Source: Mariniblastus sp. (GTDB taxonomy: Bacteria; Planctomycetota; Planctomycetia; Pirellulales; Pirellulaceae). Taken from it: a DNA stretch of 64,000 nucleotides. A program made the translations under genes and the position numbers. The notes beneath the pieces were generated by a model. It saw nothing but the letters and a program-made list of their open reading frames with translations. It did no database searches and was not told the DNA's origin. The stretch is from positions 1-64,000 of the forward strand of contig WTFU01000017.1 of NCBI GenBank assembly GCA_011523945.1. Direction: 5' to 3'. This document shows, piece by piece, positions 7,962-31,372 of this stretch; the stretch's first letter is position 1; each line of letters begins with the position of its first letter.

Positions 7962-9137
7962 ATGAACCCGTTTTATTTAGCCTTCCGAGAATTGCACTTT
8001 CGTTGGAAAAGCGGTTTGGTTTTTGTTCTAGTAGTGGCATCCGTGACGGGCGTACTTGCTTATTTTTCAGTCAACGACGCCAGCTTTCAAAAAGAGATTG
8101 GGCGAAATGTCCGCGATATTGGTTCCAACGTTGTCATTTTACCTGTGGAGGTTGATCAGTACGCCTATCATTTAGAGGGTGGTTATTCGGAAAGTACCAT
8201 GGATTCGAATTTGGTTTCGAAGTTGATCGAACATCGTGCTTCGTTAAATCATTTGATTCCAATGCTTGAGCGGCGAGCAATGTGCTCAACCGGTGATCGG
8301 CAGTCGGTTGGTCGAGTCGTTGGGCTGTCCGCATCCATTGCGATGCCGGATCGCCCCAAGGCTCCAATGCAAAGATCGATCCCAGTTGGTGAGCTTCAGC
8401 TTGGAAGTGAACTTGCAAGGGAGCTGGGGGTTGATCGTGACGCAAAAGCACAAGTGACGATTGCAGGAGCGGTGTTTAAGGTCCAACGTGTTAATCGGTC
8501 TTCCGGGACATGGCAAGATGCGGCTGCGTTTATTGATTTGGAGTCCGCTCAGGAAATTTTTGAGTTGCCCGGGCGCATTAGTCGCATTGAGGCGATCGAA
8601 TGCACGAGCGAGCAGTGTGAAGCGTCTGGATTGCAATCTTCTGTGATCTTAAACAATGAGATAGAGAAGATAACAGATAAGGCATCTTTTCTTCGGAAAG
8701 AGGAGATGGCGGAAGCAAGGCTTAGTGTGCGTTCGGTGAGCCGAGAGAATTTTCTGGTGTTGCAAAATGTGCTTTGGGTGTTTTTAGGTTTTACCGTGCT
8801 GGGGTTAGCGATTCTGAATTCGTTAAGTCGGAAGTCAGAGATTGGAGTTTTGCAGGCTGTTGGGTATGGGCGGTATCGCATCGTTGCTCTATTTTTGGTG
8901 CGGTCGCTTTTGCTCGCCGGGCTGGGAGCCGCTGTGGGCGTTACCGTTGGAATGCTGGTCTCTGTAAACCAGGCCAATGAACTGTTTGTGATGACTGGAA
9001 AAAAGACTGCACTTGATTGGTCAGCGGCAATGACGATCGGATGCGTTGCTTTTTTACTTGCCGTTTTGGGAGGCTGTGTACCCGCTTTATGGGCGGCAGG
9101 AGAGAACCCGGCTGACTTAATTGGAGGGGAATCCTGA
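7962..9137 (+). CDS. ABC transporter permease, FtsX/MacB/LolC type
   Basis: This 391-residue permease has one N-terminal membrane helix (about 17-37), an extracytoplasmic domain of about 220 residues, and three C-terminal helices (about 268-385) that match the FtsX-like permease fold (V-L-W-V-F-L-G-F, then S-E-I-G-V-L-Q-A-V-G-Y). Transporters of this class move lipoproteins, peptides or lipids outwards, or work as mechanotransmission devices. They do not import oxyanions. The stop overlaps the start of the ATPase gene (TGATG), so the pair is one unit. The position directly before a molybdate-type importer is unusual. The substrate is unknown. Confidence 0.88.
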   Translation: MNPFYLAFRELHFRWKSGLVFVLVVASVTGVLAYFSVNDASFQKEIGRNVRDIGSNVVILPVEVDQYAYHLEGGYSESTMDSNLVSKLIEHRASLNHLIPMLERRAMCSTGDRQSVGRVVGLSASIAMPDRPKAPMQRSIPVGELQLGSELARELGVDRDAKAQVTIAGAVFKVQRVNRSSGTWQDAAAFIDLESAQEIFELPGRISRIEAIECTSEQCEASGLQSSVILNNEIEKITDKASFLRKEEMAEARLSVRSVSRENFLVLQNVLWVFLGFTVLGLAILNSLSRKSEIGVLQAVGYGRYRIVALFLVRSLLLAGLGAAVGVTVGMLVSVNQANELFVMTGKKTALDWSAAMTIGCVAFLLAVLGGCVPALWAAGENPADLIGGES

Positions 9138-24934: not shown

Positions 24935-25110
24935 TTGGAACTACTGTCAAAGTGTTTCTGGAACTCTTGCCGAGAACCGAATTTTTCTGGTGATTGTTAA
25001 CTTATTTCTGCGGGATCGCGAAAGCACTTCTAAACCTATTATTTAATGATTTTGAGGGCAATTCCCCCTGTTTAGGCGGTTCTAAAGGGTTGTTGGCGAA
25101 GGAGGGAGTG

Positions 25111-25755
25111 TTGCAGATCGATAAGTTCGAAATTGGATATTTTAACGGCTGGCTTGTTGCGATCTATATCCTGCTTGTCGGCGTGTTTCTATTTGGCATT
25201 TTAAGGCCGCGACGAAAGGTTGAATGGAAGTCAGCTGGCGCTGCCCAGGCCTGGGTAATGGCGCTCTACGCCGAAATGTATGGCGTACCTCTTACTGCTT
25301 ATTTTGTGATGGCGTGGGTCGGGCGGACACGGGCAGATGCTGAAAATCATTTCAATGGCCATCTGTGGCCAATCATTTTTTCAATTCCTGAAGCTTATCT
25401 TCGTCCAACGCAGGTTTGGTTGACCTTCATCGGGCAACTGTTCATTGTTTCTGGTGGTTTGTTAGCCGTTCTTGGCTGGCGGGAAATACATCGTGCGGTT
25501 GCATCAAATTCGTTAGCCCAAACTGGACTCTATCGCTTTATCCGCCATCCGCAGTACACCGGTTTTTATTTATTTCTTATTGGCAGTGTAATAAACTGGC
25601 CAACTTTGCTTACGTTTTTGACCCTTCCGGTTTTGTGTTGGGTGTATCGCCGGTTGGCGATTGCGGAGGAGCAGGAAGCGTTAGAGACGTTTGGAATGGA
25701 TTATCAGAAGTATATGCAAAGGACCGGTCGGTTCGTTCCAAAGTTTTTCGGCTAA
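25111..25755 (+). CDS. Membrane methyltransferase, isoprenylcysteine carboxyl methyltransferase-like
   Basis: The frame opens at 24994, but a strong AAGGAGG at 25099-25105 lies 5 nt before a TTG at 25111, and homology-like sequence begins after it, so I use TTG (214 residues). The protein has about five membrane helices. The C-terminal signature G-L-Y-R-F-I-R-H-P-Q-Y-T-G, a later E-E-Q-E-A-L, and F-G-M-D-Y-Q-K-Y match the ICMT/PEMT superfamily SAM site. The substrate could be a lipid, a protein thiol or a small compound. Confidence 0.82.
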   Translation: MQIDKFEIGYFNGWLVAIYILLVGVFLFGILRPRRKVEWKSAGAAQAWVMALYAEMYGVPLTAYFVMAWVGRTRADAENHFNGHLWPIIFSIPEAYLRPTQVWLTFIGQLFIVSGGLLAVLGWREIHRAVASNSLAQTGLYRFIRHPQYTGFYLFLIGSVINWPTLLTFLTLPVLCWVYRRLAIAEEQEALETFGMDYQKYMQRTGRFVPKFFG

Positions 25756-26004: not shown

Positions 26005-26448
26005 ATGAAATATTTATTGGTTTTTGTGCTTGCTTGTTTTGTTGTCGGACACCATGACGAGCATGAGGTTCACGACAAAGATATTAGAATTGAGGAGTTG
26101 GCCAAATCGACAAAGAGCTGGAATGGTAAGTTGCTTCCCTCTTATCCGAAGGGGCAACCCGAGGTCACAATCCTAAAGATAACTGTTCCGCCAAAAACAA
26201 AATTAGCGATGCATCGTCATCCTTACATCAATGCGGGCGTCTTGCTTAAGGGCGAGTTAACGGTGGTCACAGATGACCATCGTCAATTGAAAATAAAGGC
26301 GGGGGACTCCATTGTGGAAATCGTAAACCAATTGCATTTTGGCGAAAATGCAACTGACGAACCGGCGGAGATCATCGTGTTTTATGCGGGTGTCCAAGGC
26401 AGGCCGGTGACCGTTAAAGAGGGGGCAGCCAAAACTGACGACAAATGA
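26005..26448 (+). CDS. Secreted small cupin protein
   Basis: This 147-residue single-domain cupin follows a short signal peptide (about residues 1-14). The metal motif reads H-R-H-P-Y-I-N-A-G-V-L-L-K-G-E, and the second motif G-D-S-I-V-E-I-V-N-Q-L-H-F-G supplies the last histidine. An H-H-D-E-H-E-V-H segment follows the signal. Function is not predictable from the fold; a metal-dependent binding or dioxygenase role is possible. It precedes the selenoprotein candidate on the same strand, 276 bp away. Confidence 0.78.
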   Translation: MKYLLVFVLACFVVGHHDEHEVHDKDIRIEELAKSTKSWNGKLLPSYPKGQPEVTILKITVPPKTKLAMHRHPYINAGVLLKGELTVVTDDHRQLKIKAGDSIVEIVNQLHFGENATDEPAEIIVFYAGVQGRPVTVKEGAAKTDDK

Positions 26449-26724
26449 CGGAGCCACAGGGAGTTTAATTCTGCCTGACCGTCGGAAAATCGTCCTTAAT
26501 TCTTTCTGTTAGATCGCCGCTTTAGCACTGTTTCTCGTTTTGAATTGCGAGGGTAATCAAACAGTAACGTTATCAAAGGGGTTTTCTAACTGGGACCACC
26601 TGCTCTCTTGGTTTTAGGGCATTGGGAGGGAAAAGTGGAAATTCCTCGTCATTGCCTTGAGGACTGCTATACTGGGAGCGCTGGAAACATCAGTTTTTGG
26701 CTGTCCAATCTTGGGGAGTTCGAA

Positions 26725-27924
26725 ATGAAAGTAGCCGGAATACTAAACACGTGTGCCGTTTTGATCGCAATGGTTAGCATGGCAGGGTGTGCTGATCCGG
26801 AACCGGAGGTGGTTTCGACATCTGGTTCAGCAACTAATTCTGAACGCGACTCCGTTTCTTCCAGCGGTCCGGCTAGACCAGACACTCGCCCTGCGGAGGT
26901 CGAAGAGCGAAACGGTCGCGATATGGCGGCGGTTGATCGTGAACCCACCAGTACGGGTTCACAACCACGCGATTCACGTGATTCAAGACCGCGCGATTCA
27001 CGCGATTCATGGCCGTCCGAATCAAGAAGTTCTCAACCTGCGGGTCCTGGTGCCGGTGTTGGGGTTGGAGCGGGTATCGGGAGCGGACCGGTGCCAGGTA
27101 TTAGACCGCCCGGTGGAAATGATCTAAGCGATTCATCGTCTGGAATAGGCATGGCCTCCCGAGACAACGCTGCTCGAATTCCAGGTGTCTCAGGGCAACC
27201 GGAGCCTGGAGGGCAGCCTGCCCCCCGTGAGTACAAGTTAGAGTTTACTTCTGCCTCAGGTGCGAAAGGGTTGGAGGTGGGAGATACGATTCCAGAAGTG
27301 AGTGGTAAGGATCTGGATAACATCAAATTCAAACTTTCGGATTATAAAGGCAAAGTCATCATGTTGGATTTCTGGGGGGATTGGTGACCGCCTTGCCGTG
27401 CGATGTACGGACACGAGCGGACGCTCGTCAATGAGATGAAGGGACGCCCCTTTGTTTTACTAGGAGTTAACAGCGACAAAGAAAAGACCAGAGCCAAAGA
27501 CGCGGTGAAGGATAATAATTTGAATTGGCGAAGTTGGTGGGACAAGAGCACCCAGGGTGACATTTCATCCAGTTTTCAAATACGCGGTTGGCCAACGATT
27601 TTTTTGATTGATCACGAAGGCGTCATTCAGGCTAAGAACTTGCGAGGTAGTCAACTAGATACTGCGATTGAACAATTGGTTGCCCGGGCGGAGGGCGATG
27701 GTGCTGAGGGAGGACCTTTCATTAGTGAATGGCGCACCTTCGAAGACTCAAATGGGAGGTTTCAGGTGGAGGCACGATTGGTCGGTATGGCAGATGGAAA
27801 TGTTATCCTGCTACGGAAATCAGACCAGGTGGAAATAAACGTACCGCTTTCTAGGTTAAGCAAGCGAGATCAATCATTCTCGCGAACTGAGATTAAACGT
27901 TTAAACGCGATGAATCGGTTGTAA
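26725..27924 (+). CDS. Probable selenoprotein: TlpA-type thioredoxin lipoprotein with SHD1 domain (TGA read as Sec221)
   Basis: The ATG at 26725 follows GGGGAG and begins a lipoprotein signal ending M-S-M-A-G-C. Residues 60-165 are a low-complexity spacer with two R-D-S-R-D-S repeats and a G/P-rich run. From about 183 comes a TlpA/AhpC-like thioredoxin fold: K-V-I-M-L-D-F-W-G-D-W, then in-frame TGA at 27385-27387, then P-P-C-R-A-M-Y. The TGA occupies the first cysteine of the C-x-x-C motif, giving U221-P-P-C224. The same frame stays open to 27924 and encodes the rest of the fold, including the cis-proline G-W-P-T-I, and an SHD1 domain (330-399), as in other planctomycete thioredoxins. A SECIS-like hairpin follows. 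The alternative is a nonsense mutation or a read error. Confidence 0.75.
27413..27428 (+). promoter_or_regulatory. SECIS-like hairpin downstream of the in-frame TGA
   Basis: A perfect 6-bp stem, ACGAGC (27413-27418) with GCTCGT (27423-27428), carries the loop GGAC. The loop begins 32 nt after the TGA, within the UGA-to-loop range usual for bacterial SECIS elements, and starts with G-G, as in the E. coli fdhF element. A mutually exclusive hairpin, 27388-27420 with CCGC/GCGG and CCGT/ACGG, could also form closer to the TGA. Confidence 0.55.
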
Positions 27925-28039: not shown

Positions 28040-31000
28040 TCAGGTTTCGAGTTGAGAATCTGGGTTTAGAGTGTCTTGAGTCCCGCTAGGTCCCGGCCAC
28101 CCCGACCGTAAATTAAGGTCTCGCTGAGGGAATGGAATTTCTATATTGTGTTCTGCGAAACGTTGATTGATGCGGGTATGTAATTCAGTGATCACGCTCA
28201 AGCGATCTTCCAGGTCAGGTAAATAGGCGCGTAACGAAATCGTCAAAGCGCTATCCCCGAACCCGTCAAACGTTGAGATCGGCGGTGGTTCTTGCATAAG
28301 ACTTGGGTGGCCATTTGCAATATCAACCAAGAGTTTTCTGGCGAGTTGTGTATCGCTTCCGTACGCAATTCCAATGGTGATTTGTACGCGATTGATTGAA
28401 GCTGTCAACGTCCAGTTAATAAAAGAACCGGTGATCAGCGTTTTATTGGGAACGACTAAATCTTGTCGATCCCAGTTGGTAATGACGGTTGACCGCATGT
28501 TTATTTTGACAACTTTTCCCGTCGTACCCTCGACAGTCACGATGTCACCGGCGCGAATCGGCCGTTCAAACAGAAGGATGAGTCCGCAGACAAAATTCGC
28601 AACCACTTCTTGTAATCCGAATCCCAGTCCGACGCTTAATGCGGTCAGAATCCACCCAAATTGAGACCAGTCTAATTTTAGGATGTTTGCGAAAATCGCA
28701 ACTCCAATTGCGATGACGCCGTATTGGCATAGCGTTGTGATTGCTGTGCGTGTCCCCATGTTAATACGCGTGTCACTGGAAAGTAAAAGCTCAATCAGGC
28801 TTGAGAGGTTTTGGACCGCGCCGTAGGTCACGACAATTACAAGGCCTGCTTTGATGAGGCTGAGCAGAGTCGGAGATCCAAAAAATGGAATTTTAATATT
28901 GTTCGCTGCTTCAAAGATCGGCACCGATTGTGACCAGACGAGAGCAATTATGAACAAGGTTGCCAGGCTTACGAGCAAGCGGATAAGCGTTCGGGCTTGG
29001 TCACCAACCGAGGCGAGGTCAATGGCTTCTTCTTGCTCTGCCATGTGGATCAATCGCTCCCCTGCGGTATCAGGGATTACATTAGACGTGTCTTGAGACT
29101 GCTTGAGGCGACGTTTCTCGAGAGCTTCCGTAAGTGCAAGTCGCCGATATTTGATTGCAAACCAGCGAATAATCAAGCTGTACGTAAGAGCTCCGCCGGC
29201 CGAAATGATAATCGCTGTCATCATTCCAATTCCCATTTGCAGTGCAGTGTAGGTGTAGCCGTAAATGGCTAATACGCTAATGGCGACCGGGCAGCTTAAC
29301 AAAATAGGAAACCAGAGATATCTCAAGCGAGATATCATTCGCAACGGGTGTTCGCGGATTACATCAGCGAGTATGCCATCTGAAAACCGAAACAAGCGGT
29401 AGAGTGCTAGGAGCATGCAAAGGCTCGCGAGCAATAAACTGATTCGTCCGAGTCCGCCAAAGTGAATCGCTGCATCTCCGTGGACTGTAATGGAAGTGAT
29501 CAGGATCGCGGGAATGAATGCGAGCGTGAAGGAGCGGATGATCCGCCGCGTTAAGGCGAGCGAGTGGGTATTCCAGTGGAAATGTGTATCGCCGAGGCCA
29601 TCTTTTCGACAAGCATTGTAAATGAGTTGTAAGGAAACGATGACGAATGCGCTTAGTTTTAGCCCCTGTGCCAACCCTTCGAGCCATCCGGAGTTAGTTT
29701 CCACTTGAGAGAGAGCGAGCCCAATCCCTGCAAAGAGAATTGCCCCTGGAAGCGACATCAAAATGGTCAAAAGTAGAGCTTGCCACGTGTAGAAATACTG
29801 ATCTGTTGATATTTTTTTTACATGAGATTTGATATTCACTAGCAATGAAATGAATTTGAATCGAAGCAAAGCCAACGAGAGAAATAGAGTCAAGAAAATA
29901 GTGGTGGCGATGGGAGAGCGCCGGAGCGTAAGGAGTAGGGCATCGGAGAATTCAAATGCACGCTTTGGGTTTGCTACCCACTGGATTCCATCTTTCAAGC
30001 CCAGCAAGGAGTTAAGGTCAAAGGAATTAGATGTTCGCATCCAGAGTAATGATTCTTTGATCGATTTGTCGATGTCGTCGGTTTTTTCAAAAAACTGTTG
30101 TTTGTTTGCCTTAAGAGTCGCCAGATCACGTGTCAGTTTTTTATATTGATTTTTCAGATCGAACAGGTATTTATTTTGGTAGGCCAAAAGCTGTTTGATG
30201 TCTGAGGAGTCCGTGTCTTTGTACTCACTCATCAAAGCTTTGTGCTGGCGAATACGGAGGTAGTTCTCGCGTTCCTTCGCAAATGTATCGTCAACACTTG
30301 GAAGCGCTTCTGGTTGTTTTTGCTCGATTTCAAGAAAACCACTATGGATTTCCGCTTGAAGATAGAACAGGCTTTTGGCCATTGCCTGCCCGCCGCTTCC
30401 CAAACTTAGTTCGGCCGCAAAACTGTCGTATTCCGCCGTTATCTTTTCCAGTTTTTCAATTATGGCGGCATCGAATTCGGCAACTTGATTCCGCTGATTG
30501 ACCGAGGCCTCGTATTCCTTGATAAGTTCTTCAAGATTTGCTGCGACTTCGACGAGGTCGGGGTTGTTTGGGAAATTAAATGTCTTGATGGTGGATATTG
30601 TTTTTTGAGCTTCGCTTTGATTAATCTTGGCCTGCTCAATTCGAAGATTTTTTAGATTTTCGGATTCAACGTTCCAAACTTCATTCTGATAGTTTAGTTC
30701 GGCTTCGAACGTGGCCAGTCTGTCAGGAAGGCTCTTCTCTTCTGCGAGAAGCATGGCATTTTCTGTGGTGAGTGCATATTTTTCTGACAAAAACTCGAGG
30801 TTCTGAGCTGTTTGTTGAGCAGAATCATTGGCTGCTGGTTGATTGAAAAACTCTTTTAACTCACTTTGACGTATTTTTATTTCACTCAGACGCTTGCTGA
30901 TTTCAAACGGTCTTGTGTTAATTTGGCCGACTCGGTCGGCCAGATCGGATCGCGTTTGGGTCAGGATCTTGAGTGCATCACTTTGGGTGTCAATGATTTT

Positions 31001-31372
31001 CTGAAGATTGCCGGTGTCTTCCGGTAGCGTCGGAGGCACGCCATTTTTTTCTTTTGATTCAAACTGTTCTAACTTAGCCTGCCAGGATTTTATTTTGGTT
31101 GGCGATTCAGTGATTGCTTTGTTGTAAGTCTCGGTCTGGATTTTGCTTTTCTCAGCGTTCTGCAGAAATTGAATGGCAGCGTTGTAGTGATTGGTAAGTA
31201 CCAGCTTCTCTTTCTCACCGATCGTAGCGTCGGCATTGATCGCGTCCAATTTGGATTGGATCAATTTGATTTGTGGCGGGGGCGTGTCTTGTGAAATTGC
31301 CTGGCTGTGCAGTGGATCTACGGTTAACAGCCCAATAGAAATGGCAAGCAGAATGATTGAAACAGGGTGCAT
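28040..31372 (-). CDS. Large mechanosensitive channel, MscS/MscK (KefA) family
   Basis: This 1110-residue protein has a signal peptide (cut near L-H-S-Q-A), a periplasmic coiled-coil region from about 30 to 430, about eleven membrane helices between 480 and 890, and the MscS core. The core shows the pore-helix pattern A-L-S-V-G-L-G-F-G-L-Q-E-V-V-A-N-F and the beta domain R-P-I-R-A-G-D-I-V-T-V. This is the organisation of MscK, larger than the minimal MscS. Such channels open under membrane tension and release solutes on hypo-osmotic shock. It is monocistronic. Confidence 0.93.
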   Translation of the reverse strand: MHPVSIILLAISIGLLTVDPLHSQAISQDTPPPQIKLIQSKLDAINADATIGEKEKLVLTNHYNAAIQFLQNAEKSKIQTETYNKAITESPTKIKSWQAKLEQFESKEKNGVPPTLPEDTGNLQKIIDTQSDALKILTQTRSDLADRVGQINTRPFEISKRLSEIKIRQSELKEFFNQPAANDSAQQTAQNLEFLSEKYALTTENAMLLAEEKSLPDRLATFEAELNYQNEVWNVESENLKNLRIEQAKINQSEAQKTISTIKTFNFPNNPDLVEVAANLEELIKEYEASVNQRNQVAEFDAAIIEKLEKITAEYDSFAAELSLGSGGQAMAKSLFYLQAEIHSGFLEIEQKQPEALPSVDDTFAKERENYLRIRQHKALMSEYKDTDSSDIKQLLAYQNKYLFDLKNQYKKLTRDLATLKANKQQFFEKTDDIDKSIKESLLWMRTSNSFDLNSLLGLKDGIQWVANPKRAFEFSDALLLTLRRSPIATTIFLTLFLSLALLRFKFISLLVNIKSHVKKISTDQYFYTWQALLLTILMSLPGAILFAGIGLALSQVETNSGWLEGLAQGLKLSAFVIVSLQLIYNACRKDGLGDTHFHWNTHSLALTRRIIRSFTLAFIPAILITSITVHGDAAIHFGGLGRISLLLASLCMLLALYRLFRFSDGILADVIREHPLRMISRLRYLWFPILLSCPVAISVLAIYGYTYTALQMGIGMMTAIIISAGGALTYSLIIRWFAIKYRRLALTEALEKRRLKQSQDTSNVIPDTAGERLIHMAEQEEAIDLASVGDQARTLIRLLVSLATLFIIALVWSQSVPIFEAANNIKIPFFGSPTLLSLIKAGLVIVVTYGAVQNLSSLIELLLSSDTRINMGTRTAITTLCQYGVIAIGVAIFANILKLDWSQFGWILTALSVGLGFGLQEVVANFVCGLILLFERPIRAGDIVTVEGTTGKVVKINMRSTVITNWDRQDLVVPNKTLITGSFINWTLTASINRVQITIGIAYGSDTQLARKLLVDIANGHPSLMQEPPPISTFDGFGDSALTISLRAYLPDLEDRLSVITELHTRINQRFAEHNIEIPFPQRDLNLRSGWPGPSGTQDTLNPDSQLET

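Follow-up and report, generated by a model that had tools for sequence, protein, structure and literature searches.

The frame that opens at ATG 26725 runs through 220 codons to a TGA at 27385-27387, followed by a C, and continues beyond it for 178 sense codons to a TAA at 27922-27924, giving a gene of 399 codons (Table 1). An earlier note on this DNA had counted 179 further codons after the TGA; the open frame stands, and the figure includes the final stop codon. The note had also argued that a restart at the next ATG (27403) would yield a protein without its active site, and the 173-residue open reading frame that starts there does lack both redox residues. The neighbouring genes encode an ICMT/PEMT-type methyltransferase (24994-25755), a cupin (26005-26448) and, on the reverse strand, a large MscS-type mechanosensitive channel (28040-31372); no obvious redox partner was found among these adjoining genes. 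In the window, by which we mean the whole 64,000-nt stretch analysed, nine TGA codons, counting this one and both strands, are preceded by at least 100 open codons and followed by about 60. An open frame across a TGA is therefore not rare here and by itself is weak evidence, so that the case rests on homology, on RNA constraint and on the decoding machinery. Another TGA of the window, at 9135 on the forward strand, has 410 open codons before it and 85 after.

Table 1. Features of the TGA-interrupted thioredoxin gene in window coordinates
Feature	Position	Strand	Basis or remark
Likely ribosome-binding site, GGGGAG	26713-26718	+	Read from sequence; six bases before ATG 26725
Putative signal peptide with lipobox-like end M-A-G-C22	26725-26790	+	Translation by eye; N-termini alike in orthologues
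Fast-evolving low-complexity linker, Ser/Arg/Asp then Gly/Pro rich	26791-27276	+	Translation; orthologue alignment; dN/dS 0.18
ResA/TlpA-type thioredoxin domain, residues 185-303, interrupted by TGA	27277-27633	+	Pfam; predicted structure
TGA at first redox position, residue 221, probably read as selenocysteine	27385-27387	+	Translation; homologue column
TGC, putative resolving cysteine, residue 224 of U-P-P-C	27394-27396	+	Translation; paralogue comparison
13 consecutive codons, nucleotide-identical in seven GGAC-loop orthologues including the own genome	27394-27432	+	
Candidate SECIS hairpin, 6-bp stem ACGAGC/GCTCGT, loop GGAC at 27419-27422	27413-27428	+	31 nt past TGA
SHD1 domain, residues 333-387	27721-27885	+	Pfam PF03983
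TAA, probable true stop of the 399-residue protein	27922-27924	+	Sequence; translation; orthologues

What does appear, from sequence comparison, to lie beyond chance is a single Pfam domain that bridges the TGA, together with the recurrence of TGA at the same column in homologues. A Pfam scan of the read-through protein gives PF00578 70.8 bits at residues 185-303, a span that includes residue 221 and the whole of U221-P-P-C224 and so places the protein in the UxxC group of that family, and PF08534 65.1 bits on the thioredoxin region; SHD1 (PF03983) scores 46.1 bits against a gathering cut-off of 23.7. The description of the TGA as standing at the first redox cysteine of a TlpA-type thioredoxin, in the context W-U-P-P-C and with an SHD1 domain after it, thus holds. 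The predicted structure of the thioredoxin and SHD1 domains has a pLDDT of 85.2, and the top structure matches of its thioredoxin part are 4grf, 3fw2 and ResA entries. No NCBIfam cut-off was reached by the window protein in the NCBIfam scan: the best score was that of ResA (NF002854; 74 bits against 170), and WAxxUGC (NF041054) and TUGYCR (NF053656) scored 23.6 against 300 and 21.9 against 100, respectively. The protein is ResA-like by fold and is not classed as ResA. Among the 50 read-through proteins scanned with Pfam and NCBIfam (that of the window and 49 of the 83 listed), SHD1 was found in 15, HEAT in two and FGE-sulfatase in one. The fusions of the Sec-thioredoxin domain include SHD1 plus FGE-sulfatase (L072), HEAT repeats (L079) and two SHD1 stretches (L070). 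SHD1 has an SH3 fold and is described in PMC5906684 from extracellular proteins of bacteria.

Besides the window gene, the genome has four paralogous thioredoxin domains; the column is TGA in three of these and TGC in one (L010), so that overall it reads TGA in four copies and TGC in one; two further weak matches (32 and 22 bits) lack the TGA. Relatives were collected from 60 genomes (its own and 59 others), 80 stretches being retrieved and most of the weaker listed matches left out. Among the matches listed, 118 distinct ones in 44 genomes were read, with TGA in 79, TGC in 25, TGT in 12, and TTC and GAC in one each, and up to six TGA copies were counted in one genome. When the genome matches were merged by sequence with the best 80 of 431 confirmed loci, some of which duplicate records of the genome set, contexts with N or shorter than 60 nt being dropped, 180 distinct contexts were obtained, of which 140 carry TGA at the first redox column, 25 TGC, 13 TGT, and one each TTC and GAC; the sample consists of close relatives, which the scan patterns favour, and these counts are not population frequencies. 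The TGA therefore aligns with the conserved redox cysteine of the homologues, and the alignment that the earlier note had proposed as a check shows U or C at the column in all but two of the contexts (178/180). Copies with TGA occur beyond planctomycetes, under the names Verrucomicrobia, Verrucomicrobiia, Verrucomicrobiales, Limisphaerales and Kiritimatiellia (L104, L106, L109, L124, L127, L131, L139 and L141). No relative was confirmed in one scan of viral contigs.

The stem of the hairpin past the TGA pairs positions 29-34 with 39-44, counted from the T of TGA. All six pairs are present in 128 of the 140 TGA contexts and five in ten more, and in one further context (L220) the hairpin is displaced by one codon; among the 38 Cys contexts, six pairs are found in one (L192) and five in three more. 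The exact 16-mer ACGAGCGGTCGCTCGT occurs in 111 of the 140 TGA contexts and in one of the 38 with Cys. In the TGA contexts the loop is GGUC, which is also the loop of the E. coli SECIS, in 128 cases, GGAC, as in the window gene, in seven, AGUU in three and GGGC in one. The mean number of pairs is 5.87, against 4.07 in 1000 synonymous resamplings (sd 0.06, largest 4.32). Within the hairpin every Arg codon is CGG (136/136, against 158/964 in the surrounding sequence) and every Ser codon TCG (128/128, against 169/947). This pairing and codon bias indicate strong synonymous constraint: the RNA is under selection, and not the protein sequence H-E-R-S-L-V alone.

The window hairpin agrees with the bacterial SECIS model given in PMC13188914, which has a stem of 4-16 bp, a loop of 3-9 nt with a G within its first two positions, a spacing of 16-37 nt and an energy of -7.5 kcal/mol or lower; the corresponding values are 6 bp, a 4-nt loop that starts with GG, 31 nt and -8.5 kcal/mol (18 nt folded), and one of 200 shuffles folds as well. 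Against this agreement, the 48 nt from the TGA prefer another structure, without the hairpin (-16.2 kcal/mol, z -1.12), which 32 of 200 shuffles equal, and a fold of the 39 nt that surround the hairpin does not surpass shuffled sequence (z 0.09). Taken by itself, the hairpin of paralogue L012, which has one mismatched pair, reaches -5.2 kcal/mol, short of the -7.5 of the model, and RNAalifold keeps the inner four pairs alone. The bare hairpin pattern is not specific, since GAGCGGNCGCTC, with six matches in the own genome, four of them the TGA paralogues, has seven in the backwards control; at least two one-mismatch matches to the pattern occurred in 20 of 100 shuffles of the window. The remaining two matches to GAGCGGNCGCTC (L227 and L228) were rejected as selenoprotein genes because no TGA 10-45 nt ahead of them lies in an open frame.

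In the seven genomes with a GGAC loop, codons 3 to 15 past the TGA are nucleotide-identical, a run of 13, compared with a next longest identical run of four codons downstream and a run of six within the 36 codons before the TGA; we therefore take the GGAC-loop variant to be functional. For the E. coli SECIS, the available part of a review gives U17 and G23 as essential and draws attention to U24 as well. In the window gene the stem is without a bulge, and the loop, in our own mapping onto the E. coli element, has no equivalent of U24. Between the TGA and the hairpin, at 27397-27410, weak covariation in relatives hints at another small stem: it would pair columns 14-16 with 24-26, and columns 15/25 have 17 both-sided changes in 121 sequences and the highest mutual information of the column pairs that are at least 60% paired. 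We do not claim this stem, because the signal combines two registers and more than one subfamily.

A quick tree of 182 domains has nine changes between U and C and few resolved forks, and the direction of change is not readable from it. One Cys locus, L192 in genome G026, carries its TGC at reverse-strand base 409 and keeps both a perfect GGUC hairpin and H-E-R-S-L-V, and its nearest relatives (L193 and L188, 89 and 82% identical) have TGA. The simplest reading is an apparent recent change from Sec to Cys that left the SECIS behind. In three other loci the second redox position is also TGA, giving U-x-x-U (L060 in G046, L199 in G044 and L220 in G015); the motif is VULTUR in two and GUGPU in one, and the hairpin is present in each, that of L220 in its displaced place.

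The own genome, a draft of 5.41 Mb in 208 contigs and 91.9% complete, contains selA, selB, selC and selD: tRNA-Sec scores 67.4 bits, above the gathering score, and is called SeC with anticodon tca by ARAGORN; selA (588 bits) and selB (369.7 bits) are above their cut-offs, as is selD (259.3 bits, inside a 740-residue frame). The absence of sel genes, which the earlier note had named as grounds against a selenoprotein, is thus not borne out. These genes lie on four contigs, none of them the contig of the window, and many genomes of the same genus score alike for them, which argues against a binning error. Among the matches listed, 29 genomes have TGA copies, and in these selD is found in 29, selB in 26, tRNA-Sec in 25 and selA in 23 (selA and selB counted above cut-off); the three without selB (G002, G004 and G023) are same-genus drafts that are 89, 80 and 71% complete. 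In genomes at least 90% complete, TGA was seen among the matches listed in 18 of 32 with selB and 0 of 15 without (Fisher p = 2e-4), and in all 60 genomes in 26 of 42 and 3 of 18, respectively (p = 0.0017); these are hand counts, and because the genomes are related the Fisher test treats them as more independent than they are. Among the 15 genomes that lack selB, seven were read by codon (eight matches), four (G042, G043, G051 and G052) have listed matches without stops and four (G030, G033, G048 and G059) fall below the matches listed, and the 0/15 is what was seen among the matches listed, not proof of absence.

Some selD matches have one TGA inside, four of them in G057 and one each in G036, G021, G044, G023, G027, G029, G024, G031, G034, G047 and G038; selenoprotein forms of SelD are known, and these matches may be of that kind. 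G029 has tRNA-Sec in addition to its TGA-bearing selD, with no selA match and no selB above cut-off, and G032 has selA and selB, while neither selD nor tRNA-Sec was matched in it at the thresholds applied; each is either an incomplete draft or a case of a decaying Sec trait.

The TGA is kept by orthologues in seven other genomes, that is, in all eight with its own, and a TGC or TGT on resequencing, another ground against the selenoprotein named in the earlier note, is not borne out. Seven of the eight sequences, one orthologue being left out for masked letters, give a mean dN / mean dS of 0.043 over the 178 codons downstream of the TGA (21/21 pairs) and of 0.042 over the last 66 of these (the SHD1 part). 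The 36 codons that precede the TGA give 0.022 (18/21 pairs usable), and the linker, measured over the 156 aligned columns between the start Met and those 36 codons, gives 0.18. All these ratios are rough, since mean dS is everywhere about 0.7 or higher. In the seven GGAC-loop genomes, the 179 codons that begin with the TGA include 98 with synonymous and 24 with non-synonymous variation. The part downstream of the TGA is under purifying selection, and this makes it unlikely that the truncated product is the only one. We consider it very probable, from these comparisons, that the product is an exported thioredoxin-fold selenoprotein of 399 residues, probably lipid-anchored, in which the UGA is decoded as Sec221; the selenoprotein reading of the earlier note is strongly supported by the Sec genes, the column, the hairpin and the orthologues.

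If, alternatively, the TGA were a real stop, the gene would be a pseudogene or would encode a 220-residue lipoprotein without the active site, with or without a product from ATG 27403. The adjoining cupin gene ends in a TGA (26446-26448), and the loop here is the GGAC variant, both of which fit such a stop. It is very unlikely all the same, given the dN/dS of 0.043 past the TGA and the identity of the TGA in eight of eight genomes amid codon variation, whereas drift is what one would expect of a neutral stop. Another reading is a dual output, in which the full-length selenoprotein would be made when selenium is plentiful and a truncated lipoprotein of 220 residues, with its own function, when it is scarce. 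Decoding of UGA as Sec competes with termination, what lies upstream resembles a complete lipoprotein with a long linker, and the Cys paralogue L010 could take over in low selenium; the linker, however, would form most of the truncated product and is the least constrained part measured (dN/dS 0.18), and we regard this arrangement as unlikely.

That the TGA is an error of sequencing or assembly for a true TGC, TGT or TGG might be suspected, the source being a draft assembly, but this is already contradicted by independent assemblies, the identical TGA being found in those of several isolates (L063-L068). Three paralogues of the own genome have TGA too, and a constrained hairpin would not go along with errors, so the probability of this explanation is practically nil. 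It is extremely unlikely as well that an ordinary or altered tRNA inserts Cys or Trp at the UGA, or that UGA is sense throughout the genome. Cys does stand at the column in 38 of the 180 related contexts, but the hairpin accompanies TGA and not Cys, the longest nucleotide-invariant run downstream sits just past the TGA, the own genome has a complete Sec set, TGA copies co-occur with selB, and the cupin gene next door ends in TGA.

Selenoproteins with U-x-x-C in a thioredoxin fold were known before, as the earlier note had said. In the parts of the sources available, Prx-like UXXC and thiol-disulfide isomerase-like UXXC families are listed in 2005 (PMC1088965) and again in 2022 (PMC9312934) and 2026 (PMC13188914). 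The window protein has the fold family and U-x-x-C in common with the Prx-like thiol:disulfide oxidoreductase selenoproteins (PF00578, UxxC/UxxU) and the thiol-disulfide isomerase-like ones (cd02966, UxxC) as described there, and unlike them it is lipoprotein-like, with a long linker and a C-terminal SHD1 domain. It shares fold and active-site place with the periplasmic thiol-disulfide oxidoreductases ResA, TlpA and CcmG, but has Sec for Cys, an extra SHD1 domain and a score far below the ResA cut-off. Among planctomycetes, the Porphyra isolates P1 and P2 have full sets of Sec-insertion genes and predicted selenoproteins, of which the available part of PMC4807772 names fdhA and fmdB; the comparison is by these examples alone, and overlap with the SHD1 family is possible. 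The hairpin resembles the E. coli fdhF SECIS in lying past the UGA and in its small G-rich loop, but its 6-bp stem is perfect, without a bulged U, its loop is GGAC, and its spacing is 31 nt; for the upper stem-loop of E. coli, the available part of PMC8659212 gives 11 nt from the UGA. The earlier note knew of no SHD1/lipoprotein selenoprotein, and none is described among the papers listed by the literature search; Planctomyce-, Pirellul- and SHD1 are all absent from the main text of PMC13188914. The lipoprotein/SHD1 architecture, the paralogue radiation, the nearly fixed SECIS and the GGAC-loop variant found here look new.

We infer Sec insertion, lipidation, redox direction, substrate and partner along the following lines. 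The tRNA-Sec would be charged by SelA with selenophosphate from SelD, and SelB, on the hairpin, would bring it to the ribosome so that the UGA is read as Sec221. The putative signal peptide, whose lipobox-like end was recognized by eye, would direct export and membrane anchoring. By analogy with CxxC oxidoreductases, Sec221 would be the attacking nucleophile of U-P-P-C and Cys224 the resolving residue. The protein may thus function as a thiol:disulfide oxidoreductase of the ResA/TlpA type, held in the cell envelope through a lipid anchor and a long linker, with a partner or substrate as the probable ligand of its C-terminal, SH3-like SHD1 domain.

If a gene caller takes TGA for a stop, this protein ends at residue 220 and another may be started at 27403, whereupon the redox site disappears; about half of the window protein is missed in this way, and the same annotation loss is expected for the other TGA copies found. 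The family supplies a set of Sec and Cys paralogues within one genome, along with L192 as an apparent recent change from Sec to Cys, and its natural loop variants (GGAC, AGUU and GGGC) are material for testing what SelB needs. It also raises the question of why selenium and SHD1 are combined in exported planctomycete thioredoxins. We lean, if only slightly, towards a broader view in which planctomycetes and related phyla would possess modular, multiplied exported Sec-thioredoxins, with SHD1, HEAT or FGE-sulfatase modules, that are served by one nearly fixed SelB hairpin. The GGAC hairpin of the window clade would then work although its loop lacks the U of E. coli, so that recognition by SelB would differ there, and the SHD1 domain may aim selenium-based redox chemistry at partners in the cell envelope.
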